Source: Crossiella cryophila
GTDB taxonomy: Bacteria > Actinomycetota > Actinomycetes > Mycobacteriales > Pseudonocardiaceae
Assembly: GCF_014204915.1 (NCBI RefSeq)
Contig: NZ_JACHMH010000001.1
Span: forward strand, 1,426,001-1,490,000
Direction: 5' to 3'
Length of the DNA: 64,000 nt
Part shown: positions 17,792-58,640 of the stretch, in pieces
Layout of the letters: each line of letters begins with the position of its first letter
Numbering within the stretch: the stretch's first letter is position 1
Notes under the pieces: generated by a model
Database searches by the model: none
What the model was told of the DNA's origin: nothing
The model's input: the letters and a program-made list of their open reading frames with translations, nothing else
Translations under genes and position numbers: made by a program

Positions 17792-18724
17792 TCAGCCGGT
17801 CGCGGCCCGCAGGCTGTCCATGGCGTGCCGGACATGGCCGCTGCTGGCCTCCAGCGCCCTGGTGGCGGTCTCGGTGTCCACTCCGGAGAGCAGGCACACC
17901 AGCGCGGTCTTCACATCGCCCTCGGCGGCCAGCAGCGCCGCCGAACAGGTCTTCTCATCCAGCCCGGTGGCCTCGCCCAGGATGACCAGCGACCGCCCGC
18001 GCAGCTTGGCGTTGGTGGCCTTCATGCTGACCATCAGGTTGGAGTAGGTGCGGCCCAGCCGGACCATCACCGCGGTGGAGAAGGAGGTCAGCACCAGCTT
18101 CTGCGCGGTGCCCGCCTTCATCCTGGTGGAGCCGGCGATGGCCTCCGGACCGGTGTCCACGGCCAGCCGCACGTCCACGTCCACCCCGGCGATCGCGGCC
18201 GGGTTGGCCGAGACCAGCCCGGTGCGCGCGCCCAGCCGCCGGGCCGCGGCCAGCGCGGAGAGCACGAACGGGGTGCGCCCTGACGCGGCGAGGCCGAGCA
18301 CGAAGTCCTTGGGGGAGGCGTGTTCGGCGATCACCGCGGCCCCGGCCTCCAGGCTGTCCTCGGCGTCCTCGACGGCCTGCCGCAGCGCGGCCGCACCGCC
18401 GGCGTGGTGGGCCAGGAACCAGTCCGTCGGCGCGCTGAAGGTCGGCACCAGCTCGGCCGCGTCCAGCGTGGCCAGCCGACCGGAGGTGCCCGCTCCGACG
18501 TAGTGCACCCGGCCGCCGGAACGCAGCGACTCCACCGCGAAGTCCACCGCCCTGGCCAGCTCCGGCAGCACCAGCGCGACCGCGCCGGGGACCAGCTGGT
18601 CCTCGGCGTTGATCATGCGCAGCATGTCCTCGGTTGGCAGCTGGTCGAGTTCGAGCGTGCGTGGGTTGCGGCGTTCCGTCGGCGAGTCCACCCGGACCGA
18701 GGGACGCGGCGTGGGGAAGCTCAT
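17792..18724 (-). CDS. murQ: N-acetylmuramic acid 6-phosphate etherase
   Basis: A 310-residue cytoplasmic SIS-domain lyase that splits MurNAc-6-phosphate into GlcNAc-6-phosphate and D-lactate. The SIS phosphate loop is VGAGTSGRLATLDAAELVPTF, including the catalytic glutamate. A second signature is STRMKAGTAQKLVL. Length is normal. ATG 18724 overlaps the stop of the upstream regulator (ATGA), so the two form a tight operon. Confidence 0.96.
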   Translation of the reverse strand: MSFPTPRPSVRVDSPTERRNPRTLELDQLPTEDMLRMINAEDQLVPGAVALVLPELARAVDFAVESLRSGGRVHYVGAGTSGRLATLDAAELVPTFSAPTDWFLAHHAGGAAALRQAVEDAEDSLEAGAAVIAEHASPKDFVLGLAASGRTPFVLSALAAARRLGARTGLVSANPAAIAGVDVDVRLAVDTGPEAIAGSTRMKAGTAQKLVLTSFSTAVMVRLGRTYSNLMVSMKATNAKLRGRSLVILGEATGLDEKTCSAALLAAEGDVKTALVCLLSGVDTETATRALEASSGHVRHAMDSLRAATG

Positions 18725-19656
18725 TTGCCGGTCTCCCGCTGGCGGCGCCTGCCGTCCGGGCGCGGCCCGAGCCGGTGCCCGCTGACCGCCTCGAAGGTGG
18801 CCTCCAGGGCCGCCGTCGCGGAGCCGTGGTGGCGCTGGGCCACCCCGACGAACAGGCAGTCGATCACGGTGAGCTGGGCGATCCGGCTCGCGGTCGCACC
18901 GGAGCGGAAGGTGGTCTCCCTGGCCGCGGTGGTCAGCACGTAGTCGGCGACCTCGGCGATGGGGGAGCGCGGGAAGTTGGTGAGGGCGACCGTGGTCGCG
19001 CCCCGGCTGCGGGCCACCCGCAGCGCCTCCACGGTGTCCGCGGTGGCGCCGGTGTGCGAGATGCCCACCGCCACATCGCCCTTGGACAGCACCGCGGCGG
19101 AGGTCAGCGCGATGTGGGTGTCGCTCCAGGCGAAGCTGATCCGCCCGATGCGGTGCAGTTTCTGCTGCAGGTCCATGGCCACGAAGGCGCTGGCGCCCAC
19201 GCCGTAGACGTCCACCCGGCCCGCCGCGGACATGGCCTCGACGACCTTCTCCAGCTCCACCACGTCGAGCTGGTCGGCGGTCTCCTCGACCGCGCGGGCA
19301 TCGGCGAAGGAGACCTTGCTGACCACCTGGCGCAGGTCGTCGCCCTGGCCGATGTCACTGCCGAGATCGCGGTCGGCGCGGGCCGCGGTGCGCGCGGTGT
19401 CCGCGGCCAGCGCGATGCGCAGGTCCGGGTAGCCGCCGACGCCGATGGCCTTGCAGAAGCGGGTCACCGTGGTCTCGCTGGTGCCGGCGGCCTCGGCGAC
19501 CTCGGTGATGGAGCGGTGCGCGACCACGGCCGGATCGCTGAGCACCACCTGGGCCACTCGCTGCTCGGCCCGTGCGAGTCCCGGGAACAGGGAGCGGATC
19601 CGTACCAACGGACTCGTGTCAGCGATGTCCGGGGCCGAGCCAAGGGAAGAGGCCAT
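18721..19656 (-). CDS. murR: RpiR-family regulator, MurR-like
   Basis: A 311-residue regulator with an N-terminal RpiR helix-turn-helix (about 40-75, ITEVAEAAGTSETTVTRFCK) and a C-terminal SIS sugar-phosphate domain (about 145-270, VDVYGVGASAFVAMDL). Coupling to murQ suggests it senses MurNAc-6-phosphate, as Escherichia coli MurR does. ATG 19656 is preceded by a TAAGTT -10 element and an 11-base palindrome, consistent with autorepression. Confidence 0.9.
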   Translation of the reverse strand: MASSLGSAPDIADTSPLVRIRSLFPGLARAEQRVAQVVLSDPAVVAHRSITEVAEAAGTSETTVTRFCKAIGVGGYPDLRIALAADTARTAARADRDLGSDIGQGDDLRQVVSKVSFADARAVEETADQLDVVELEKVVEAMSAAGRVDVYGVGASAFVAMDLQQKLHRIGRISFAWSDTHIALTSAAVLSKGDVAVGISHTGATADTVEALRVARSRGATTVALTNFPRSPIAEVADYVLTTAARETTFRSGATASRIAQLTVIDCLFVGVAQRHHGSATAALEATFEAVSGHRLGPRPDGRRRQRETGK

Positions 19657-19662
19657 GTCGGA

Positions 19663-19679
19663 AACTTACTAACAGTTAG
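19663..19679 (-). promoter_or_regulatory. murR promoter and candidate MurR operator
   Basis: The reverse-strand -10 element TAAGTT (19668-19663) ends 6 bases before the murR ATG. Immediately upstream is the odd-length palindrome CTAAC-A-GTTAG at 19669-19679. This places it in the promoter spacer, where a repressor would block polymerase. Confidence 0.5.
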
Positions 19680-20077
19680 GCAGAGAATCAACAGGTCATC
19701 TGGCGTCTTTGTGCTGCCTCAGCCCACTGTAACCCCGTTACCGCGCGGTGTTGAGGAAGAACTTTCGGCGGCTGATAACGGGCAAATGGTCACCGTTGTC
19801 CTTCAATCGAACGACACCGGGGATTCATGTTCTGCCGCAGGTCAGGGCCGTGAGCGGGGCGTTCGAATGTCACCGCCGTCTTAAGTCTGCCAAGATCATC
19901 GGATCTGTGCACACAGTCCCCCGCCGGACTCCGTTCGGCTTAGTCAGCGGGGTCGATTAGCCCGTTCGTGTCTCCGAATCGTTACGCCCCGGTGTCGCCC
20001 CTGGAACCGGGGGTTGACGTGCTCGAACCCGTACCGACACCGGTACGTGTTGTGCCCGGTAAGCCGGGTTCGCGGCA
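19680..20077. other. Spacer between the two halves of the recycling cluster
   Basis: About 400 bases with lower G+C and no credible gene. Two short hairpins, CGTACC...GGTACG near 20030-20047 and CCCGG...CCGGG at 20055-20068, lie downstream of the serine hydrolase stop and may add to termination. Confidence 0.45.
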
Positions 20078-20096
20078 GTGGTGAGTCCTTCACCAC
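20078..20096 (-). terminator. Hairpin after serine hydrolase gene
   Basis: GTGGTGA (20078-20084) and TCACCAC (20090-20096) form a 7-base-pair stem just after the stop at 20101. It has no clear T-run. Confidence 0.45.
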
Positions 20097-20100
20097 ATCG

Positions 20101-21840
20101 TCATCTGCTGACCGTGGTCCAGCCCTGCGCGGTGAGTGCTTCCGGGTGCTTCTCGGCGTCCAGCAGCACGCCCCGGCGGTCGCTGATCCGGATGCCGTCG
20201 AGGAAGACCCCGCGGCCGGTGTACTGCTTGTCGCTGGCGTAGCGCCAGCGCAGGGTGACCGAGGCGGCCACTGGCAGCTCGGCGGAAACCCGCCACCAGG
20301 CCCGGTGCCCGGCTCCGGTCAGCGCGGTCACCGCGTCCGCGGGCGCGCCCGCTCCGGTGGCGGTCAGGGTCAGCGGCTGCCAGTTCACCCCGCCGTCCAC
20401 GCTGGCCTCCACGGTCACCTTGTCGGTGCTCTCGGTGTCGACGAAGGCGGCGAAGTTCAGCCGGGCCGGTCCGCGCTGGTAGAGCGCGCCGGTGCGCAGC
20501 GTGGCGGCCTGCTCCTCGTTGGCCGCGGAGTGCCAGGCGTCCTTGCCGTGCCGCGGCTGCACCGCGAGGGACTGGGCGAAGCCCTGGGCCAGGGCACGCC
20601 GGGCCGGGTTGTTGGAGCCCCAGGCCCGGGACGGGTGCACCCGGTTGGACAGCAGCACCGCGACCGAGCGGGACACCGGGTCGATGACCAGCGAGGTGCC
20701 GGTGAACCCGGTGTGCCCCGCGGTGCGCGGGCTGGACAGGCCCTCCATGTACCAGCGCTGGTCCAGCTCGAAGCCCAGGCCGTGCGCGTTGTCCGGGAAG
20801 CCGGTGTTGTGGTTGGTCATCATCTGCCGCAGCGTGCGCTCGCGCAGGATCCGGTGGCCGCGGTAGGTGCCGCCGTTGAGGATGGTCTGCCCGAGCACGG
20901 CCAGGTCGTCGGCGGTGCCGAACACCCCGGCGTGCCCGGCCACGCCACCGAGTGACCAGGCGTTCTCGTCGTGCACCTCGCCGCGCACCATGCCGCGGGC
21001 CGGCGTGGTCATGAACTCGGTGGCCGCGGTCCGCGCCTTGTCGGCCGGGTTGTAGCCGGTGTCCCGCATGCCCAGCGGCTCGGTGATCCCCTTGCGCACC
21101 AGCACATCGAGGGGATCGCCGGTGACCTTCTCCACCAGCACGCCGAGTGCGATCAGGTTGAGGTCGGAGTAGATGTAGGCCTTGCCGGGCGGCTGCTGGA
21201 GTTTGGCGGTGAGCGCGCCCAGGATCCGGCTGGGCTTGTCCGGGTGGTCCCGCCACAGCGGCAGGAACGGCGGCAGCCCCGAGGTGTGGGTGAGCAGCTG
21301 TTCGACGGTGATGGCGTCCTTGCCGTTGGCCGCGAACTCCGGCAGGTAACTGGCCACCGTGCGGGCCAGGTCCACCCGGCCCGCCTCGACCTGCTGCATG
21401 ACCGCGATCGAGGTGAACAGCTTGGAGATCGAGGCCAGGTCGAAGATCGTGTCCGTGCGCATCGGCGCCTGCTGCTCCGGCGGCAGCTCGGTGCCGATGC
21501 CGTCGGCGTAGCGCAGGGCCTGGCCGGTCGCGGTCCTGGTGACCACCCTGCCGTCGTGCGCCAGCAGCGTCACCGCGCCCGCGAACAGCGGTTTCGCCGT
21601 GCCCTGCGGCTGCGTCCAGTTCCTGATCTTCTCCAGCGCGGCGTTGATCGGCGCCGGATCCAGCCCCGCGCGCTCCGGGGTCGAAGCGCGCAGGGTGGTC
21701 CAGAAGGGGGCGAAGCCCGGATGCGGGCGGTCGAAGCGGCCGGACACCCCGCCACTGTCACCTGTTTCCGCCGCCGCGGCCGGTAGACCCGCGGTGAGCA
21801 GTGCGAGCAGCAGCACGGGCACGATCATCCGGCGACGCAT
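20101..21840 (-). CDS. Secreted serine hydrolase, AmiE-like (beta-lactamase fold)
   Basis: A 579-residue exported protein with a Sec signal peptide (about 1-24, cleavage after AAA). The penicillin-binding/class C beta-lactamase fold follows: SISK nucleophile motif (about residue 139), YSDLN in the second-motif position and HTGFTG as third motif. A C-terminal beta-rich domain (about 450-579) may bind glycan or wall. In B. subtilis the equivalent member of the MurNAc operon, AmiE (YbbE), is a MurNAc-L-alanine amidase that frees peptides from muropeptides, and the same role is inferred here. It follows namZ by about 10 bases. Confidence 0.87.
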   Translation of the reverse strand: MRRRMIVPVLLLALLTAGLPAAAAETGDSGGVSGRFDRPHPGFAPFWTTLRASTPERAGLDPAPINAALEKIRNWTQPQGTAKPLFAGAVTLLAHDGRVVTRTATGQALRYADGIGTELPPEQQAPMRTDTIFDLASISKLFTSIAVMQQVEAGRVDLARTVASYLPEFAANGKDAITVEQLLTHTSGLPPFLPLWRDHPDKPSRILGALTAKLQQPPGKAYIYSDLNLIALGVLVEKVTGDPLDVLVRKGITEPLGMRDTGYNPADKARTAATEFMTTPARGMVRGEVHDENAWSLGGVAGHAGVFGTADDLAVLGQTILNGGTYRGHRILRERTLRQMMTNHNTGFPDNAHGLGFELDQRWYMEGLSSPRTAGHTGFTGTSLVIDPVSRSVAVLLSNRVHPSRAWGSNNPARRALAQGFAQSLAVQPRHGKDAWHSAANEEQAATLRTGALYQRGPARLNFAAFVDTESTDKVTVEASVDGGVNWQPLTLTATGAGAPADAVTALTGAGHRAWWRVSAELPVAASVTLRWRYASDKQYTGRGVFLDGIRISDRRGVLLDAEKHPEALTAQGWTTVSR

Positions 21841-21849
21841 GGATCCCCC

Positions 21850-23118
21850 TCAGCGGTACAGCAGGTACTGGGCGCGATGACGGCGGAAATCGGTCTGCTC
21901 CTGGCGGTAGGAGCCGACGATCTCCTCGGTGCTCGCACCGCGGTCGACCATGTCCTTGAGGCGCTCGGTGCCCCACAGCTTGTGGATGAAGTTGTCCGGC
22001 CGCCAGCCGAACAGCTCCGGGTACAGCCGTTTCGCCAACACGATCATGGCCACCCCGGCCTGGATCGGGTCGAAGGCGCGCGGATCGGTGAGCACCAGCT
22101 GCACGCCACCGCAGTTGACGTTGACGTGCTTGTTGAAGGTGGGCACGAAGTAGTTCTCCCGGAACAGCACACCCTTGAGCCCCAGCGCGTTGAGCGCCTC
22201 CGCCCAGCGCCAGTCGATCTTGGGCAGGCCGACCGTCTCGAACGGCCGGGTGGTGCCCCTGCCCTCCGACAGCAGGGTGCCCTCGAACAGGCAGGTGCCC
22301 GGGTATACCAGCGCGGTCTCCGGCGTGGGCATGTTCGGGCTCGGCGGCACCCAGTGCAGGCCGGTGCTCGCGAAGAGCATGTCCCGCCGCCAGTTCCGCA
22401 CCGGCACCACGTCGAGCTGCTCGACCCGCTTGCCGGTCTCGGCTGGCAGGAAGGTGTCGTTGTAGAGCCGGGCCAGCTCGCCCATGGTCATGCCGTGCCG
22501 CAGCGCGATCGCCTTGCGGCCGACCCCGGAGGCGTGTTTCGGGTCCAGCTGCGGACCGTGCGCCTGCCCGCCGATCGGGTTGGGCCGGTCCAGCACCAGC
22601 ACGGCCGCGCCGGTGAGCACGGCGGCCTGCATCGCGGTGTAGAGCATCCAGATGTAGGTGTAGAACCGCACGCCCACATCGGCGATGTCGAAGACCACCA
22701 CCTCGACGTTGGCCTTGCGGTACATCTCGGCCAGCTTCACCGCGGTCGCGCCGTAGGCGTCATAGACCCGGACCTTGGTGCGCGGATCGTCGTACTCGCC
22801 CTCGGAACCACCGGCCTGCGCGGTGCCGCGGAAACCGTGCTCCGGACCGAACACCCCGACCAGGTTGACCGCCCCGGAGGCGACCATGGTGTCCACCAGG
22901 TGCCCAAGCCCGTCGGAGAGCACCCCGGTCGGATTCGTCACCACCCCGACCCTGCGGCCCTTGAGCTGGGCGAACCCGTTGTCCGCCAACCGGTCCGCGC
23001 CGGTGCGCACCCTTCGCCGGTCGCCGCCCTCGGGTTCGGCCAGCGCCGTACCCGCGGTCAGCAACGGCACTGACAACGCCGAGGCGGCCAGGAAACCGCG
23101 CCTGCTCACACCATCCAT
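21850..23118 (-). CDS. namZ: NamZ-type exo-beta-N-acetylmuramidase (DUF1343/GH171)
   Basis: A 422-residue secreted hydrolase. The Tat signal is obvious (SRRGFLAAS then a hydrophobic stretch, about residues 5-30). The mature part shows DUF1343 hallmarks: TNPTGVLSDG, VFGPEHGFRG, DVGVRFYTYIWML and LDRPNPIGG. B. subtilis NamZ (YbbC) of this family removes terminal MurNAc from glycan chains. ATG 23118 follows a GGGAGA site by 9 bases; an upstream GTG at 23136 overlaps the nagZ stop but would add residues before the Tat motif. It sits between nagZ and the amidase-like gene. Confidence 0.92.
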   Translation of the reverse strand: MDGVSRRGFLAASALSVPLLTAGTALAEPEGGDRRRVRTGADRLADNGFAQLKGRRVGVVTNPTGVLSDGLGHLVDTMVASGAVNLVGVFGPEHGFRGTAQAGGSEGEYDDPRTKVRVYDAYGATAVKLAEMYRKANVEVVVFDIADVGVRFYTYIWMLYTAMQAAVLTGAAVLVLDRPNPIGGQAHGPQLDPKHASGVGRKAIALRHGMTMGELARLYNDTFLPAETGKRVEQLDVVPVRNWRRDMLFASTGLHWVPPSPNMPTPETALVYPGTCLFEGTLLSEGRGTTRPFETVGLPKIDWRWAEALNALGLKGVLFRENYFVPTFNKHVNVNCGGVQLVLTDPRAFDPIQAGVAMIVLAKRLYPELFGWRPDNFIHKLWGTERLKDMVDRGASTEEIVGSYRQEQTDFRRHRAQYLLYR

Positions 23119-23132
23119 GGCTGGATCTCCCG

Positions 23133-24917
23133 TCACCAGGTGAGGCCGAAGCCGAACGGGTACCGGATCTGCGCCGGGTCGCCCAGCACGGGCACGCCCA
23201 CCGGCAGCTTGCCGCTGGGTTTGGCCTCGCCGAAGAGCACCTTGGTCAGCGATTCCATCGACACCGCGGTGGCCGAATAGGTGGTCAGCCAGGTCTTCGC
23301 ATCCTCGATGGCCACGTCGTACGGATCCCGCACGGCCACCCCGACCACCGGTTTCCCGGTCGCCACCAGCCGTTTGACCAGCTCACGCTGTTGTGCGTCC
23401 GTGGTGGCCCGGTTCGTCAGCACCAACACCAGGTCCTGTCCCTCGGCCGCCGCGACCGCCTTGGCGATCACCGCCTCGGTCGGCTTGTCCCCGGTGACCT
23501 GCACGGTCGGCGTCACCCCGCGTGCGGTGAGCTTCTGCCCCAGCGCGGTGGCACTGCTCGACCCGGCCACCAGCACCTTGCCGGGCTTGGCGCGCAACGG
23601 AAGCAGTCCGGCGTCGTTGCGGACCGCGGTGACCGTGCGGTCGGTGACCTGCTGCGCGGTGGCCAGGTGCGCGGGGATGCCCACGACCTTGTCCACCGCG
23701 GCTTCATCGACCAGCGGATGGGTCAGCGCACCGCGCTTGATCTTGAGCAACAGCACCCGGAGCAGGCTCTCGTCGATCCGCCGCTCACTGATCTCGCCAC
23801 TGCGCACCGCGTCCAGCACGGCCTTGATCGCCACGTCCAGGTTCTTCGGCATCAGCAGCATGTCCGCGCCAGCCTTGAGTGCCAGCACCGGGATCTCCGC
23901 GTCCGGGTGCTTGATCCGCACCGCCTCCATCTGCAGCGAGTCGGTGATGATCACCCCGCGGTAGCCGAGCTGGCCACGCAACAGACCGGTCAGCATCTTC
24001 GGCGAGAGCGTGGCGGGCTCACCCGAGTCGTCCAGCTTGGGCGTCACGATGTGCGCACTCATGATCGAGTCCACGCCCGCCTTGATCGCGGCCTGGAACG
24101 GCGGCGCGTCCAGCTGCCGCCACTGCTCCGGGGTGTGGTTGATCACCGGCAGCGTGTAGTGGCTGTCCTGGTTGGTGTCCCCGTGCCCGGGGAAGTGCTT
24201 GACCGTTGCCGACACGCTCTGCCCGAACCGGCCCTGCTGATAGCCCTTGACCTGCGCGGTCACCTGCTGCGCGACCAGCTTCGGATCGCTGGAGAAGCTG
24301 CGCACGCCGATCACCGGGTTGGCCGGGTTGACGTTGACGTCGGCATCCGGCGCGAAGTTCTGGTTGATGCCCACCGCGCGCAGTTCCCGCCCGGTGATCT
24401 CCGCGGCCTGCCTGGCCAGTCCGGCGTCCCTGGCCGCCCCCAGCGCCATGCTGCCAGGGAACAGCGTCGCCGGCGAGCTGAACCGGGTGACCACGCCCTG
24501 CTCCTGGTCGGTGGAGATCAGCAGCGGCAACCGTGCCCCGCTGCTCATCGCCGCCCGCTGCAACCCGTTGGACAGCGCGGCGACCTGCTTGGGGTTGGCG
24601 AAGCTGTCCGTCCAGTTGAAGTAGATGACCCCGCCCAGGTGGTACTTGCGCACCACCTCCGCCGGGGTGGCCACCCCGTACTCGGCCAGGTTCTTCGGGT
24701 GCGCCGAGTCCGCGGCGGGCCCGTAGGCGTAGGTGACGAAGAGCTGCCCGACCTTCTGCTCCAGGGACATCCCGCGCATCCGCGTCGCCGCGGCCTGCTC
24801 CCCGGTCAGCGCCTCCGCTGCCGTCTCCGGTGTCGCGCTCGCGGGGAAAACCCCCATGACGGTGACCGCGGTCAGCGCCGAGAGCGCCGCCGCGAGTGGC
24901 CGGCCAACCTGGTGCAC
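23133..24917 (-). CDS. nagZ: Secreted beta-N-acetylglucosaminidase (GH3)
   Basis: A 594-residue GH3 enzyme with a Sec signal (about 1-30). The NagZ His-Asp dyad loop is in KHFPGHGDTNQDSH (about 243-256), and the nucleophile Asp is in GVIITDSLQMEAV. It has a second C-terminal domain, as in the two-domain extracellular Bacillus NagZ, unlike the single-domain cytoplasmic Gram-negative form. It removes non-reducing GlcNAc from wall fragments, exposing MurNAc for NamZ. GTG 24917 follows a GGGAGG site. Confidence 0.94.
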   Translation of the reverse strand: MHQVGRPLAAALSALTAVTVMGVFPASATPETAAEALTGEQAAATRMRGMSLEQKVGQLFVTYAYGPAADSAHPKNLAEYGVATPAEVVRKYHLGGVIYFNWTDSFANPKQVAALSNGLQRAAMSSGARLPLLISTDQEQGVVTRFSSPATLFPGSMALGAARDAGLARQAAEITGRELRAVGINQNFAPDADVNVNPANPVIGVRSFSSDPKLVAQQVTAQVKGYQQGRFGQSVSATVKHFPGHGDTNQDSHYTLPVINHTPEQWRQLDAPPFQAAIKAGVDSIMSAHIVTPKLDDSGEPATLSPKMLTGLLRGQLGYRGVIITDSLQMEAVRIKHPDAEIPVLALKAGADMLLMPKNLDVAIKAVLDAVRSGEISERRIDESLLRVLLLKIKRGALTHPLVDEAAVDKVVGIPAHLATAQQVTDRTVTAVRNDAGLLPLRAKPGKVLVAGSSSATALGQKLTARGVTPTVQVTGDKPTEAVIAKAVAAAEGQDLVLVLTNRATTDAQQRELVKRLVATGKPVVGVAVRDPYDVAIEDAKTWLTTYSATAVSMESLTKVLFGEAKPSGKLPVGVPVLGDPAQIRYPFGFGLTW

Positions 24918-25024
24918 CGATGCCTCCCTGCTGGTCAGGACTAGTTCGGGTAACTCTTCACAAAAAGGACTAGGTTGCCTGCAAGTTACTGACGTGATCT
25001 GGACGGGTCAACGGCCGTACGGCG

Positions 25025-25879
25025 TCATTTGAACCCGGTCTGCGCGATCCCCTGCACGATCTGACGCTGCATGAACAGGAACACCACGACCACCGGCGCC
25101 ATCGTCACCACGCTCATCGCCAGGATCAGGTTGAACGGAACCACCTCCTCCGCGGCGAAGCGGGCCAGCGCCACCTGCAGGGTGTAGGTGTGCTCGTCCT
25201 GGGCCACCACCAGCGGCCACAGGAAATCGTTCCACCGCCACACCACCGAGAAGATCGCCACCACCGCCAGTGCGGGCTTGCACAACGGCAGCACCACCCG
25301 CAGGAAGATCCGCGGCTCGCCGGCGCCGTCGATCCGGGCCGCCTCGATCAGCTCATCCGGGATGGTCAACATGTACTGGCGCAACAGGAACACCCCGGTC
25401 GGCGTGGCCGCGGCCGGGATGATGAGGCCCCACAACGAGTTCACCAGTCCCAGATCGGCCACCACCTGGTAGACCGGGATGAAGATGACCTGCAACGGCA
25501 CCATGATCGTGCCGAGGATGATGAGGAACAGCGTGGTCCGGCCGCGGAAGTTGTACTTGGCCAGCGCGTAGGCCGCCATCGTGTTGACCACCAGCGTCAG
25601 CACCGTCGCGGCCACCGTGACCAGCACGCTGTTGCGCAGATACACCGCGAAATTGAAGCGCCCCAGCGCGTCCACGTAGTTGTCCGGCCGGAAACTCTCC
25701 GGCAGCAACCGCGGCGGCCGCAACGACAACTCGGTGCTGGACTTGAACGAGGACAACACCGTCCACAGCACCGGGGCCAGCACCAGCAACGCCAGCGCCA
25801 CCAGTCCCGTGTAGGCCAGCACCTTCCCGGCAGGCGGCATCGGCCTGCCGCCGATCCCGGTCCACCGCGGCGGACTCAC
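25025..25879 (-). CDS. Sugar ABC transporter permease (CUT1, MalG-like)
   Basis: A 284-residue inner-membrane permease with six spans. The EAA cytoplasmic loop is EAARIDGAGEPRIFLRVVLP (about 190-209). GTG 25879 overlaps the stop of the partner permease (GTGA); an ATG at 25840 is an alternative. It probably imports a wall-derived amino sugar, inferred from the adjoining nagZ-namZ genes. No ATPase is encoded nearby. Confidence 0.92.
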   Translation of the reverse strand: MSPPRWTGIGGRPMPPAGKVLAYTGLVALALLVLAPVLWTVLSSFKSSTELSLRPPRLLPESFRPDNYVDALGRFNFAVYLRNSVLVTVAATVLTLVVNTMAAYALAKYNFRGRTTLFLIILGTIMVPLQVIFIPVYQVVADLGLVNSLWGLIIPAAATPTGVFLLRQYMLTIPDELIEAARIDGAGEPRIFLRVVLPLCKPALAVVAIFSVVWRWNDFLWPLVVAQDEHTYTLQVALARFAAEEVVPFNLILAMSVVTMAPVVVVFLFMQRQIVQGIAQTGFK

Positions 25880-26760
25880 ACCGCCTCCCGCCGCCGGGCC
25901 AGCCCGAACTGCACCAGCGTGACCAGCAGGATCACCACGAACAACAGCACCGACCCCGCCGAGGCCAGCCCGTAGCTGATGGGCGATTCGAACCCGCGCT
26001 GGTAGATGTACTGCACCAGCAACGTGGTCGCGCCCAGCGGACCACCGCCGGTGAGGCTGTAGAGGAAGTCGAAGGACTGGAACCCGGCGATGGTGGCCAG
26101 CACCAGCACCACCAGCGTGGTGGGCCGCAACAACGGCACCGTGATCAGCCGGAACCGCTGCCACGGCCCGGCCCCGTCCAGCGCGGCCGCCTCATGCAGG
26201 TGCGGATCGATCGCCTGCAACCCGGCGAGCAGGATCAACGCGTAGAAACCCAGGTGGATCCACACCCCGACCCCCACCGCGGCCACCATCGCCAGCGCCG
26301 GGTCGACCAGCCAGCCCGGCGTCGGCAGCCCCAGCCCGCCGAGCACGGTGTTGATCAACCCGCCGCGGCCCTGCAACAACCAGCCCCACACCAGGCCGAC
26401 CACCACGGGGGAGAGCACCATCGGCAGGAAGAAGGTGGCCCGGAAGAACCCGCGCCCGCGCAGCCGCCGGTTGAGCAGCACCGCCACTCCCAGCGCCACC
26501 AGCACCGAGATCAGCACGTAGGCCAGCACGAACACCAGCGTGTTGGCCGCGGCGGACCAGAACTGCTCGTCGGAGAGGATCCGCCGGTAGTTGTCCAGGC
26601 CGACCGGGCGGAAGGTACGGCCGTTGCTGCTCTCGTAGAAGCTGATGTTGACGCTGTTCAGCGCCGGGTAGATGGTGAAAACCCCGAAGATCAGCAGGTT
26701 CGGCAGGAGGAAGAGGTAGGGCGCGAGCCGCTGACCCCAGCCGATCCGCCGCCCGGTCAC
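25876..26760 (-). CDS. Sugar ABC transporter permease (CUT1, MalF/UgpA-like)
   Basis: A 294-residue six-span permease. The EAA loop is HEAAALDGAGPWQRFRLITV (about 190-209). GTG 26760 overlaps the binding-protein stop, and its own stop overlaps the second permease, so the three proteins are made in a fixed ratio. Confidence 0.92.
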   Translation of the reverse strand: MTGRRIGWGQRLAPYLFLLPNLLIFGVFTIYPALNSVNISFYESSNGRTFRPVGLDNYRRILSDEQFWSAAANTLVFVLAYVLISVLVALGVAVLLNRRLRGRGFFRATFFLPMVLSPVVVGLVWGWLLQGRGGLINTVLGGLGLPTPGWLVDPALAMVAAVGVGVWIHLGFYALILLAGLQAIDPHLHEAAALDGAGPWQRFRLITVPLLRPTTLVVLVLATIAGFQSFDFLYSLTGGGPLGATTLLVQYIYQRGFESPISYGLASAGSVLLFVVILLVTLVQFGLARRREAV

Positions 26761-28055
26761 CGCCCGCTGACCTCCGCATACGCCCGCTCACTCACCTGCC
26801 GCACGGTCCGCGCCGCCTCCTCCGGCGTGCTCTGCCCGCCGAGCACCCTGGCGATCTCATCCCGCAACGCGTTGGCGGTGCGCGCGAACGCGGGGGAGGA
26901 GTTGGAGGTGTATGCCTCCGCGGGCACCAGTTTCGCCTCGGCCAGGAAGATCCGCATGTCCTCCAGACGCTGCGGATAGCTGATCCCCGGATCGACCAGG
27001 TCCTTGCGAGTGGGCAGGAACTGGGCCTTGGCCACCAGCTCCCGCTGCCGCTGCGCGCCGTTCATCCACTCGATGAACGCCGCGGCCGCCGCCGGGTGCT
27101 TGGACTGCTTGAACGAGACCATGTACTTGCCGCCGGGAAAGCCGCCACAGCGCGCCGCACACGGGTTCGGCGCCGCCGCGAACCGGAACTGACTGGCCTT
27201 GGCCAACTGGCTGACCTGCCAGTTCCCCGACAGGTACACCGCGGCGTCCTGGGCAAGGAAGATCTCGTTGGCGCCCTTGTAGCGCGAACCGGACTCCAGC
27301 CAGAAGTCGGTCGGCATCGCCCCGGAAGCGTGCAGCCCGGCGAAGCGCTTGAGCGCCTCGGTGGCCTTGCCGACATCCAGCGCCGGGCGGCCGTCCAGGT
27401 CGAAGAAGGTGGTGCCGTACTGACTGAGCATGGTGGCCAGCCGGTGCCCCGACTTGTCCATCGCGATCGCGTACGGCTTGCCGGTGACCCGCCGGACCTT
27501 CTCCGCGGCCTCGACCAGCTCGTCCCAGCTCCACCGCTCCGGCACCGGCACCCCGGCCTTGGCGAACAGGTCCAGGTTGACGAACGGGCCGTTGAGGGTC
27601 AGATCGCTGGGCACACCCAGGAACTCCCCGGCCGGACCACGCACCGCCCTGGCCGCATCCGGCAGGAAGGCGTCCGGGAAAGTCTGATCGGACAGGTACG
27701 GGCGCAGGTCGAGCAGGTCCGCGCGATAGGGATTGAGGTCCTGGGTCCGCGCGACGTCCGGGGCCTTGCCGGCCGCGATCCGCGCCTGCAACGTCCGCTC
27801 CAGGTCCGAGTAGGCCACCAGCTGCAGGTTCACCCGCGCGCCGGTGGCGACCTCGAACTTCTCAATCGTTTGCCGAGTCGCGATCTCATCCGGGCCATCG
27901 GTGAAGTACAGGTACTCCAGCTCCACCCCGCGCAACTGATCCGGCCCGGCCGGGCGGGCGTCACCGGGCGCGGCAGCCTCCGGCACACCGGGCGCGCACG
28001 CGCCCAGCACAAGCAGCAACGCGAGCAAGCCGCCGACTCCGCGCACCGCCCGCAT
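26757..28055 (-). CDS. Lipoprotein sugar-binding protein of ABC importer
   Basis: A 432-residue extracytoplasmic binding protein of the SBP_bac_1 type. It has a lipoprotein signal with lipobox LGAC (Cys about residue 20). The mature fold shows TQDLNPYRADLLDLRPYL, the WSWDELVEAAEKVR hinge helix and the AAAAFIEWMNGAQRQREL C-lobe segment typical of carbohydrate binders. Two cysteines in NPCAARCGG may form a disulfide. ATG 28055 follows AGGCGGG. It is first in the import operon, whose direction leads into nagZ. The ligand (MurNAc or a GlcNAc-MurNAc fragment) is inferred from context only. Confidence 0.9.
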   Translation of the reverse strand: MRAVRGVGGLLALLLVLGACAPGVPEAAAPGDARPAGPDQLRGVELEYLYFTDGPDEIATRQTIEKFEVATGARVNLQLVAYSDLERTLQARIAAGKAPDVARTQDLNPYRADLLDLRPYLSDQTFPDAFLPDAARAVRGPAGEFLGVPSDLTLNGPFVNLDLFAKAGVPVPERWSWDELVEAAEKVRRVTGKPYAIAMDKSGHRLATMLSQYGTTFFDLDGRPALDVGKATEALKRFAGLHASGAMPTDFWLESGSRYKGANEIFLAQDAAVYLSGNWQVSQLAKASQFRFAAAPNPCAARCGGFPGGKYMVSFKQSKHPAAAAAFIEWMNGAQRQRELVAKAQFLPTRKDLVDPGISYPQRLEDMRIFLAEAKLVPAEAYTSNSSPAFARTANALRDEIARVLGGQSTPEEAARTVRQVSERAYAEVSGR

Positions 28056-28164: not shown

Positions 28165-28462
28165 GGTGGCGCCCACCGGCTTTCACCGAGGGCGCCACCA
28201 ACAGCGTGAACAGTCAGGTTACCAAGCGTGCATCTCGTGTCGTACAAATCTGAGCTCGACGTCCAGCGTCCCGGTACGTAGCCCCTAGACGACATGCCTC
28301 CCGCGGCGTGCTGCGCGTGGGTGCCCGCTGTTCACGCACGGAGCCCAGTGGGGTGGATGGTGCTTCTCTTCGCATCATCCCTGGCCAGTTGAGGTCCGCA
28401 CCTCCATGTGTAGTCCGTGAGGGCGGTCACAGCAAGGGCTCAGACGGGTGCACCGTTTCAGA
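28165..28462 (-). ncRNA. Candidate Ms1/6S-like small RNA
   Basis: This is a gene-free interval downstream of, and on the same strand as, the HAD phosphatase. In M. tuberculosis the abundant RNA MTS2823 (Ms1 of M. smegmatis, a 6S-like RNA that binds core RNA polymerase) lies at the equivalent place after Rv3661. The 3' end has a strong hairpin with 10-base arms (28165-28174, 28190-28199). Ends can pair in two nested helices: 28449-28453 with 28228-28232, and 28438-28444 with 28249-28255. Local hairpins lie at 28391-28404 and about 28356-28381. The -10 candidates are TTTATC near 28474 or TACACA at 28412 with a TTGCTG -35. The exact 5' end is uncertain. Confidence 0.45.
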
Positions 28463-28536: not shown

Positions 28537-29388
28537 TCAGTCGCCGGACTCACTATTACCGGTGCGTCCACGCCGATGCCGCCGCAGTCCGTACCAGGCA
28601 GCGCCCGCCGCCGCGACCACCCCGAGCCCCACCGCGGCCGCCGCCACGGTCGCCCCCGACGGGGTGGGGATCCGGGCCCGCAACGACACCGGATCGGAGA
28701 AGGTCAGCACCGGCCAGCCCCGCTGCGCGGCGAGTTTCCGCAGCGCACGGTCCGGGTTCACCACGGTCGGATGGCCGACGGCCTCCAGCAGCGGAAGATC
28801 GGTGATGGAGTCGGAGTAGGCGTGCGAGGCACTCAGGTCGTACCCGTGCTCCTCGGCCAGCCCGCGCACCGCGACGGCCTTGTTCTCGCCGTAGCAGTAG
28901 AAATCGACATCTCCAGAGTAGCGACCCTCGGTAACCACCATCCGGGTGCCGACCGAGTGCGTCGCCCCCACCATTTTCGCGATCGGAGCCACTATTTCCG
29001 CCCCCGAAGCGGACACCACGACCACGTCGTGCCCCTCCTGCTTGTGCTCCCCGATCAGCTGGGTCGCCTCGGCGTAGACCAGCGGATCAACGATGTCATG
29101 CAGGGTCTCATCCACGATCGAGCGAACCTGCTCGACATCCCACCCGGTACACAGCGCGGTGATGTGCGACCGCATCCGATCCATCTGATCCGCGTCCGCC
29201 CCCGCGAGCATGAACACGAACTGGGCATAGGCACTCTTGAGTACCGCCCGCCGATTGATCAACCCCTCCTGGAAGAACGGCCGGCTGAACGCGAGCGTGC
29301 TGGACTTCGCGATCACCGTCTTGTCCAGGTCGAAGAACGCGGCAACCCGCTTGCCAGCACTGATGCCATCGCCACGAGGTTCGGTCAC
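28537..29388 (-). CDS. HAD-family phosphatase, SerB/Rv3661-like
   Basis: A 283-residue HAD-IB hydrolase. Motif I is FDLDKT (catalytic Asp pair), motif II is the serine in VVVSASGAE, and motif III is DSITDLPLLEAVG. A hydrophobic C-terminal segment with a basic end (about 255-283) probably tethers it to the membrane. Relatives are called SerB2-like or morphological-differentiation proteins and sit beside ssd in mycobacteria and Streptomyces. The phosphate substrate is unknown. GTG 29388 is chosen because of the TATGCT element just before it; the reading frame upstream is only repeat sequence. Confidence 0.9.
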   Translation of the reverse strand: MTEPRGDGISAGKRVAAFFDLDKTVIAKSSTLAFSRPFFQEGLINRRAVLKSAYAQFVFMLAGADADQMDRMRSHITALCTGWDVEQVRSIVDETLHDIVDPLVYAEATQLIGEHKQEGHDVVVVSASGAEIVAPIAKMVGATHSVGTRMVVTEGRYSGDVDFYCYGENKAVAVRGLAEEHGYDLSASHAYSDSITDLPLLEAVGHPTVVNPDRALRKLAAQRGWPVLTFSDPVSLRARIPTPSGATVAAAAVGLGVVAAAGAAWYGLRRHRRGRTGNSESGD

Positions 29389-29490: not shown

Positions 29491-29575
29491 TCCGGCTGAG
29501 CCGGATGAGTTCAGTCCGACCCCCCGGGGCTGAACTCCTGACGACCCCCGTCCCTCCCCCCTGGCGGGGGTCGTC
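29491..29575. other. Three consecutive hairpins
   Basis: Perfect inverted repeats follow one another: TCCGGC/GCCGGA (29491-29505), GAGTTCAG/CTGAACTC (29507-29537) and an 11-base-pair stem 29540-29550 with 29565-29575. They lie between the HAD gene and the repeat tract. They could be a structured leader, a small RNA or a terminator array. Confidence 0.5.
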
Positions 29576-29655
29576 CCATATCCGGACCCCGGTTCCGCAC
29601 AGTGACAACCCGTCACTTCCCAAGTTGCCAGAACCCGGCCCCAACCGCACACTCC

Positions 29656-57407: not shown

Positions 57408-58640
57408 ATGACAGCGCTATCCCGACGTGTGCTGCTCACCGGAGCGGCGGCGACCGCCGGAGCACTGGCCCTGCAGCCAGGTGCCGCGCTGGCCGCCGCC
57501 GGCGCCCCGGCCGAGGAAGCCTTCGCGCCGAACCCGGCCCGGCTGCGCCAGACCCTGGACTACGCGGTCGCCAAACTGCGCCAGACCGCGCCGACCGTGG
57601 CCACCTTCCCCGAGGAGACCAGGTTCGAGAAGTGGATCCCGGTCAACGACGGCGGCTGGGTCGGCGGTTTCTGGCCCGGCCTGCTGTGGCTGGGCTTCGT
57701 GGACAGCCGCGACCCGCAGTTCGAGAAGTGGGCGAGGGAGGCCGCGCTGCGGCTGACCCCGCGCATCCCGGACACCGGCACCCATGACATGGGCTTCCTG
57801 TTCTACCCGTCCTGGGTGACCGCCTACCGGCTCACCGGCGAGGCGTCCTGGCGGGACGGCGCGGTGCGCGCGGCCGAGTCGCTGAGCAAGCGGTACAACA
57901 CCGCCGGCAAGTTCATCAGGGCCTGGGGTTCGCTGGGCTCCACCGGCAACGCCGGCCGCACCATCATCGACACGATGATGAACCTGGACCTGATGTTCTG
58001 GGCCACCGAGGTCACCGGGGACGGCAAGTACGCCGACATCGCGGCCAACCACGCCCGCACCACCATCAAGCACTTCATCCGCCCGGACGGCTCCACCCCG
58101 CACGTGTTCGACTTCGACCCGGTCAGCGGCACCGCGGTTGGCCCGAACACGGTGCAGGGCTACAGCGCCACCTCGACCTGGGCCCGCGGTCAGGCCTGGG
58201 GCATCTACGGTTTCGCCACCACCTACCGCCGCACCGGCGACCGCCAGTTCCTCAACGCGGCGACCAGGATGGCCGACCACATCCTGCCCTACCTGGCGGA
58301 GAGCCCGGTCCCGATCTGGGACTACCGCTCCCCGTTGGCGCCCAACGACATCCGCGACTCCTCGGCCGGCGCGATCACCGCGTGCGGGCTGCTGGACCTG
58401 GCCAAGATCACCGGCAACGCCCGGTACCAGACCACCGCGCTGACCGTGCTGGACGCGTTGTCCCGCACCTGCCTGACCACCAGGTCCGACCGGCATGACG
58501 CGGTGCTGGCCCGCGGCACCAAGAACCGCAGGGCGGAGAACGGCATCGAGGTGTCGCTGCCCTACGGCGACTACTACCTGATGGAGGCCATCCTCCGGGT
58601 GCTCAAGCCCAGGGAGATCGCCAAGGCCATCGGCCTCTGA
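57408..58640 (+). CDS. Secreted unsaturated glucuronyl hydrolase (GH88)
   Basis: A 410-residue exported enzyme with a Tat signal (LSRRVLLTG plus hydrophobic stretch, about 4-30). The (alpha/alpha)6 barrel shows the two catalytic-type aspartates of the family in THDMGFLFYPSW and TIIDTMMNLDLMFW. It releases 4,5-unsaturated uronic acid from lyase-generated oligosaccharides, whose product spontaneously gives the KduI substrate. It follows the permease and has a GAGAGGAC site. No polysaccharide lyase is present in the window. Confidence 0.93.
   Translation: MTALSRRVLLTGAAATAGALALQPGAALAAAGAPAEEAFAPNPARLRQTLDYAVAKLRQTAPTVATFPEETRFEKWIPVNDGGWVGGFWPGLLWLGFVDSRDPQFEKWAREAALRLTPRIPDTGTHDMGFLFYPSWVTAYRLTGEASWRDGAVRAAESLSKRYNTAGKFIRAWGSLGSTGNAGRTIIDTMMNLDLMFWATEVTGDGKYADIAANHARTTIKHFIRPDGSTPHVFDFDPVSGTAVGPNTVQGYSATSTWARGQAWGIYGFATTYRRTGDRQFLNAATRMADHILPYLAESPVPIWDYRSPLAPNDIRDSSAGAITACGLLDLAKITGNARYQTTALTVLDALSRTCLTTRSDRHDAVLARGTKNRRAENGIEVSLPYGDYYLMEAILRVLKPREIAKAIGL

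Follow-up and report, generated by a model that had tools for sequence, protein, structure and literature searches.

We have analysed a stretch of 64,000 nucleotides from Crossiella cryophila (the window; positions 1,426,001-1,490,000 of one 10.06-Mb contig), in which eight genes on the minus strand join a three-gene ATP-binding cassette (ABC) importer of the CUT1 type to five genes with predicted roles in the salvage of N-acetylmuramic acid (MurNAc). The transcription order is solute-binding protein (SBP), permease 1 (P1), permease 2 (P2), nagZ, namZ, amiE-like, murR-like and murQ; coordinates and domain matches agree with the genes, order and strand given in an earlier note on this DNA (Table 1). 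That note had proposed that the CUT1 system stands in for MurP, the MurNAc importer of the phosphotransferase system (PTS), and that the cluster represents a distinct actinobacterial route. We favour, with moderate confidence, a different reading: a MurNAc-salvage block of the family Pseudonocardiaceae would have received, in Crossiella, an accessory importer for an acidic sugar, and a sodium:solute symporter encoded elsewhere would be the default entry for muramyl sugars. As its closest relatives look like importers of another acidic sugar, the importer was probably added to the block and is probably not the cell-wall-sugar importer that the family seems to lack.

Of 249 Pseudonocardiaceae genomes, 192 gave a NamZ match, in 38 of 46 genera. 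After one filler region had been dropped, 39 NamZ loci from 32 genera were read, four of them from Crossiella, and the window brought these to 40 loci with five from Crossiella; the NamZ of the window shares 98% identity with its Crossiella sp. S99.2 counterpart, and four more genomes of the genus are in the sample. The genes nagZ, namZ, amiE-like, murR and murQ lie on one strand in all 39 loci, some of which carry extra genes between amiE and murR. A HAD hydrolase gene stands beside the block at 40/40 loci, the window included, and an acs gene on its other side at 31 of the 40. The importer genes are present at the block in all five Crossiella genomes and at none of the 35 other family loci, a distribution which does not bear out the distinct actinobacterial route. 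The distance between the HAD gene and nagZ is 3,575-3,623 bp in the five Crossiella genomes versus 485-1,913 bp in the other 35 loci, and therefore the importer genes represent an insertion of some 2.9 kb in the Crossiella lineage. This insertion, the lineage of the importer and the conservation and presence of the genes are direct observations.

The inserted genes encode the parts expected of a CUT1 importer, a lipoprotein SBP and two BPD_transp_1 permeases. No ABC ATPase was found among the eight genes and ten neighbouring frames scanned, the rest of the genome not having been searched; a shared MsiK-type ATPase encoded elsewhere is usual in Actinobacteria. Orthologues of the SBP (E<=1e-60) occur in 14 of the 249 family genomes, namely the five Crossiella and nine others. 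Eight of these nine also have NamZ, and in all eight the ABC genes lie apart from nagZ-namZ, an arrangement that the earlier note had itself named as one that would refute its proposal. In seven of the eight loci (L169 being the exception) a protein of about 790-930 amino acids without a Pfam match, here called the ~900-aa protein, is encoded close downstream of the permeases. A wider search of 394 sampled genomes of the class Actinomycetes (SBP at E<=1e-50) gave four more loci, L179-L182, and all four carry unsaturated-uronide genes with the importer. L179, L180 and L181 have homologues of GH88, KduI and KduD (by Pfam in L179 and by homology in the other two), the name KduD being our interpretation of a short-chain dehydrogenase, and L182 has GH88, a PfkB kinase and a 2-keto-3-deoxy-6-phosphogluconate-type aldolase beside the importer (Pfam). 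The ~900-aa protein is also found in L179-L181, and the sequence of L182 ends where it would lie. Thirteen non-Crossiella importer loci of Actinomycetes stand apart from nagZ-namZ, ten with the ~900-aa protein and four with uronide genes, three loci having both. Members of the ~900-aa family (L164-L168, L170, L171 and L179-L181) matched nothing in Pfam, up to E 10 in the three tried, and nothing in the PDB; their conserved NH, Y and H motifs are, as we take it, reminiscent of polysaccharide lyases. Homologues of GH88, KduI and KduD were not found beside the importer in L164-L168, L170 and L171, where the uronide label means the ~900-aa protein alone, and L162 and L169 show neither the uronide genes nor the ~900-aa protein beside it.

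The phylogeny agrees with this origin. In a midpoint-rooted permease tree the Crossiella proteins are nested in the uronide-cluster importer family (family branch 100/100) and grouped, together with L162, with the L165-L179 set (support 99.8/99), away from the CUT1 permeases of MurNAc clusters (L267, L272 and L273; L037, L039, L055 and L053). The five Crossiella SBPs keep 13/13 of the aromatic, charged and amide residues that are strictly invariant in twelve sister SBPs, and 28/28 of those invariant in at least 11 of the twelve. In a leave-one-out control on the twelve sisters, six retain every such residue, one or two are missing in five, and in L182 10 of 23 are lost. This retention fits an unchanged ligand type, of which it is no proof. 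The family of origin and the kept residues, together with five strong GH88 matches in the Crossiella genome, favour an importer that still takes unsaturated uronides for the Crossiella GH88 enzymes and came to lie beside nagZ by a chance insertion. We regard this as rather unlikely, since the neighbourhood is kept in all five Crossiella genomes and the ~900-aa partner was not found in a Crossiella genome-wide search, made without a positive-control genome. Moreover, no importer of this family was seen in the four GH88 loci read (five genes), where an SBP of another type lies at one end of L232, and two of the GH88 proteins look, by inspection, to be exported. GH88, KduI, KduD and the ~900-aa protein were not among the scanned neighbours of the Crossiella importer. 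The window itself holds a weak GH88 match (E 4e-6) at 57819-58463.

As the earlier note had recognised, the enzyme set matches that of the MurNAc operon of Bacillus subtilis; the names AmiE, MurR and NagZ are weaker, as these proteins lie below curated cut-offs. MurQ passes both TIGR00274 (302.1 bits, cut-off 302) and PRK05441 and is the single match in the genome at E<=1e-8. NagZ reaches 179 bits with PRK05337 (cut-off 207), and the B. subtilis YbbD structure is its second PDB match (E 1.3e-91). The AmiE-like protein has as its best NCBIfam model PBP4B, at 193 bits versus a cut-off of 385, is below cut-off in each of the 25 NCBIfam models listed out of 44, and gave no match in a PDB search at 1e-20. 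The MurR-like protein has RpiR and SIS domains and scores 140 bits with the MurR model (cut-off 408). The names AmiE and MurR rest on fold and context, because both proteins score below their curated cut-offs. All three hydrolases, as also claimed before, look exported by inspection, with Sec-like signals in NagZ and the AmiE-like protein and a twin-arginine signal (SRRGFLAAS) in NamZ.

The substrate of MurQ is MurNAc-6-phosphate, from which it yields N-acetylglucosamine (GlcNAc)-6-phosphate, and AnmK makes MurNAc-6-phosphate from anhydro-MurNAc. No kinase is encoded in the eight-gene cluster. The Crossiella genome has AnmK and two BadF-type kinases, the latter about 116-125 kb from the end of the window and one of them in a GH4/CUT1 cluster. 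The gene directly after that of AnmK encodes a sodium:solute symporter (PF00474; L178:8575-11328, genome 9,570,571 onward). In the family, AnmK is present in 191 of 249 genomes: 180 have both NamZ and AnmK, 12 NamZ only, 11 AnmK only and 46 neither. Among 39 family AnmK loci read (five from Crossiella, two fillers dropped) the symporter lies within 300 bp after AnmK on the same strand in every case, the copy in L213 being truncated where the contig stops. L197 and L223 each have an uninterrupted group of a BadF-type frame (a weak match), MurQ, AnmK and the symporter, and other phyla have symporter homologues in their MurQ/NamZ clusters (L045, L046). The AnmK-adjacent symporter is, on this conserved arrangement, the more likely family-wide candidate for muramyl-sugar entry, Crossiella included. 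MurT of Tannerella forsythia was considered as proof for such a role and rejected, because two papers describe MurT differently: it is called a member of the sodium-symporter superfamily in an excerpt of one (PMC5790795) and distantly related to NagX in an excerpt of the other (PMC9007349). Homology between MurT and the Pseudonocardiaceae symporter is uncertain.

The spacing of the genes suggests three units rather than one operon, namely SBP-P1-P2, nagZ-namZ-amiE and murR-murQ. Gaps of 90-107 bp separate P2 from nagZ and of 400-445 bp the amiE-like gene from murR, alike in 5/5 Crossiella genomes; the P1-P2 distance in this five-genome comparison is 26-29 bp, a later P2 start having been used. 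An element around GTnAGTAAsTTnCC is common to the upstream regions of murR and nagZ. It was first seen by eye, and the pattern then gave 47 sites in 70 upstream regions of the 35 non-Crossiella loci (32/35 for murR and 15/35 for nagZ). A scoring matrix trained on these sites, with the Crossiella regions kept out, scores just two positions of the window above 8, those of murR and nagZ. Upstream of the SBP gene the element is absent in all five Crossiella genomes, with a best score of -4.8 in the window, near the background median of -6.8, and of -4.8 to -6.9 in the other four. Behind the importer genes, the nagZ block still has a promoter-like region of its own. The element overlaps a -10-like stretch and may be a promoter, a candidate MurR operator, or both. 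A palindrome, CTAAC-N-GTTAG, which murR of the five Crossiella and of L144 has in perfect form, was also considered as the MurR operator and was dropped for the longer element, there being no match within two mismatches at the Crossiella nagZ or SBP genes. A generic promoter scan found nothing, and terminator matches were at chance level.

The absence of MurP was correctly noted before: no MurP-like PTS was found in the genome, which has one PTS_EIIC match overall. This lone EIIC adjoins a GntR regulator, an EIIB-like frame and an HPr-like frame and looks like NagE (GlcNAc type). The CUT1 system could then be an importer of MurNAc, or of GlcNAc or GlcNAc-MurNAc, that replaces MurP with a kinase encoded elsewhere. 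The two BadF-type kinases and AnmK of the genome agree with this, as do the kept adjacency and strand in 5/5 Crossiella genomes and an SBP-nagZ pair in another genus, described below. So do CUT1 systems of other lineages in MurQ/AnmK/NagZ clusters. Among the 40 AnmK loci read in the class outside the family, a CUT1 importer is contiguous with AnmK/MurQ genes in L267, L272 and L273, and in L267 and L273 with NagZ as well; such systems also occur in MurQ/AnmK/NagZ clusters of Chloroflexota, Firmicutes and Treponema. The earlier pairing of an ABC importer with MurNAc enzymes does hold for other CUT1 lineages. Replacement of MurP in Crossiella remains doubtful in our judgement: the block lacks the importer at 35/35 other family loci, the sister importers stand in uronide clusters, and the SBP upstream region is without the nagZ/murR element. 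Nor does the cluster hold a kinase for MurQ, versus an AnmK or BadF-type kinase at ten of the twelve other NamZ/MurQ/AnmK loci that carry CUT1 permeases (none was found in L044 and L079). The NagZ of L267 and L273 also has no signal by inspection, unlike that of Crossiella, and for this reason disaccharide uptake is suggested at those two loci, of which L267 has a symporter too. A third importer type is seen in L255 and L261, where Dpp-like peptide-type ABC genes lie between MurR and MurQ-AnmK (inspection). Importers in actinobacterial MurNAc clusters are varied in type, and the separate permease lineages in the tree suggest that CUT1 systems were recruited to such clusters more than once. In L273 (3841-5670) we also observed a 610-aa frame that is BadF-kinase-like in front (81-aa match) and MurQ-like behind, possibly a MurNAc kinase-etherase fusion.

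Several observations weigh against the reading that we prefer. In each of the five Crossiella genomes the importer still adjoins nagZ and faces the same way. Outside the genus, in genome G006 (L163:772-3816), the gene for an SBP of the Crossiella clade precedes that of a lipoprotein-like NagZ by 3 bp; in the SBP tree the Crossiella proteins and two from G006 form a clade (97/99), with the L163 protein on a long branch, and the two G006 SBPs keep 11/13 each of the residues invariant in the sisters. Downstream of this nagZ are the usual neighbours (a 252-aa gene, a 205-aa gene and acs) without namZ-amiE-murR-murQ between, and the contig stops 0.8 kb upstream of the SBP gene, leaving the HAD side and any upstream permeases out of view. 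MurQ, NamZ and AnmK were not found in the G006 genome (97% complete) by the searches used; therefore the link of this SBP clade to NagZ exists beyond Crossiella without MurNAc enzymes. This pair, with the adjacency in Crossiella, hints at a murein-related ligand. With regard to the symporter, it stands at 7 of 40 AnmK loci read in the class outside the family (the AnmK cut-off was reached by 82 of 394 class genomes), and its upstream regions are without the murR/nagZ element (1/39 above score 10), so it would not be tied to MurR either. A structure model of the SBP (AlphaFold2, 7 sequences) was too poor to use, with a mean predicted local distance difference test score of 44.5 and a predicted template modelling score of 0.42. 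The G006 pair also favours an importer of a sugar released by NagZ, such as GlcNAc, independent of MurQ. We consider this quite improbable, given that a NagE-like PTS for GlcNAc is already in the genome and that the best PDB matches of the SBP by sequence are the ABC sugar binder 4qrz, Lin1841 and the acarbose/maltose binder GacH, chitin-oligosaccharide binders being much weaker. A ligand call from these PDB matches was rejected, all being too distant.

Taken at its most probable, the salvage block with an accessory importer would work as follows. NagZ, NamZ and the AmiE-like amidase would act outside the cell and MurR and MurQ inside, as an exolytic MurNAc-salvage block of Pseudonocardiaceae. 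Muramyl sugars would enter, in Crossiella as elsewhere in the family, via the symporter encoded directly after AnmK; AnmK would give MurNAc-6-phosphate from anhydro-MurNAc, free MurNAc would depend on a BadF-type kinase, and MurQ would then form GlcNAc-6-phosphate. The Crossiella ancestor would have gained at this block the three-gene CUT1 importer, from a lineage serving unsaturated-uronide clusters elsewhere in Actinomycetes. The importer would be accessory, most likely for an acidic sugar and with its ATPase encoded elsewhere, and either still specific for uronides or re-tuned to murein sugars, MurNAc also being acidic. Substrates, direction of transport, regulation and the ATPase are what we infer here. 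More tentatively, since both ligands carry a carboxylate, Crossiella may have captured a uronide importer and re-tuned it for a muramyl sugar, as a second entry beside the AnmK-coupled symporter, itself perhaps the long-sought (anhydro)MurNAc importer of the family.

Table 1. Features of the MurNAc-salvage cluster and its surroundings in the window
Feature	Position	Strand	Basis
CUT1 solute-binding lipoprotein (SBP), 432 aa, Crossiella-specific at this site	26757..28055	-	Pfam SBP_bac_8/SBP_bac_1; lipobox LGAC by inspection
ABC permease 1 (P1)	25876..26760	-	PF00528 (BPD_transp_1); permease tree
ABC permease 2 (P2)	25025..25879	-	PF00528; start inferred from 4-bp overlap with P1, mechanical open reading frame opens further upstream
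nagZ, predicted exported GH3 beta-N-acetylglucosaminidase	23133..24917	-	PF00933/PF01915; YbbD/NagZ structures
namZ, exo-beta-N-acetylmuramidase, twin-arginine signal	21850..23136	-	PF07075 + PF20732 (both NamZ domains)
AmiE-like class-C beta-lactamase-fold hydrolase, C-terminal MAM-like domain	20101..21840	-	PF00144, PF20773
RpiR/MurR-type regulator (murR-like)	18721..19656	-	PF01418 + PF01380
murQ, MurNAc-6-phosphate etherase	17792..18724	-	TIGR00274, PRK05441
HAD hydrolase gene, marker of ancestral site	28537..29388	-	PF12710; start from simple gene caller
nagZ upstream element TCACGTCAGTAACTTGCAGG, related to murR element	24978..24997	-	score 15.5
murR upstream element AACTGTTAGTAAGTTTCCGA, candidate MurR operator	19658..19677	-	score 36.5

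Between the HAD and SBP genes a strong hairpin was seen by eye at 28165-28199 (GGTGGCGCCC/GGGCGCCACC). The SBP frame is open upstream to 28295 and contains there a stretch RG-VPGR-T, which apparently also stands upstream of nagZ in L139. A 6C RNA adjoins the cluster on the plus strand at 29505-29579 (Rfam RF01066, 74.1 bits).

Known systems, as far as excerpts of the cited papers describe them, resemble parts of this arrangement. The B. subtilis operon is murQ-murR-murP-amiE-nagZ-ybbC(namZ) (PMC5061867); Crossiella shares with it NagZ, NamZ, an AmiE-like hydrolase, an RpiR-type regulator and MurQ, and differs by the lack of a detected MurP, by AnmK and the symporter at another place in the genome, and by the added CUT1 importer. 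The murQ region of Streptomyces coelicolor, SCO4305-4308, is likewise described in that excerpt as a MurQ/MurR-like pair with no MurP orthologue, but unlike Crossiella consists of MurR-like, MurQ and two function-unassigned genes only (PMC5061867). The uronide clusters L179-L182 have the same SBP-P1-P2 lineage, and Crossiella is without their GH88/KduI/KduD and ~900-aa neighbours. The CUT1 loci of MurNAc clusters (L267, L272, L273; L037-L039, L055, L053; L061) likewise place an ABC sugar importer beside MurNAc genes; they belong to other permease lineages (L038 lying outside the tree), and an AnmK or BadF kinase was found in each, unlike in Crossiella. MurT-MurK-MurQ of T. forsythia is presented as PTS-independent MurNAc uptake with a kinase, MurK, and MurQ (PMC5790795), and YejBEF-YepA of Agrobacterium, an ABC importer in peptidoglycan recycling likened here by description only, as a muropeptide importer (PMC9790009). 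A mycobacterial preprint of 2026 speculates, in its excerpt, on an 'unknown transporter' (PMC13041923). Among the matches listed from the open-licence literature, titles and abstract openings report no CUT1 or sodium:solute symporter MurNAc importer in Actinobacteria.

Muramyl-sugar import without MurP in actinobacteria is thus, as the available parts of two papers present it, still unsettled (PMC5061867, PMC13041923), and the CUT1 importer of Crossiella is unlikely to be the general answer to actinobacterial MurNAc import. Sharper candidates are the AnmK-symporter pair across the Pseudonocardiaceae loci read, CUT1 systems of another lineage elsewhere in Actinomycetes, and, in a further group, Dpp-like systems. 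The more useful outcome of this study is that the AnmK-symporter pair offers an importer candidate open to testing.

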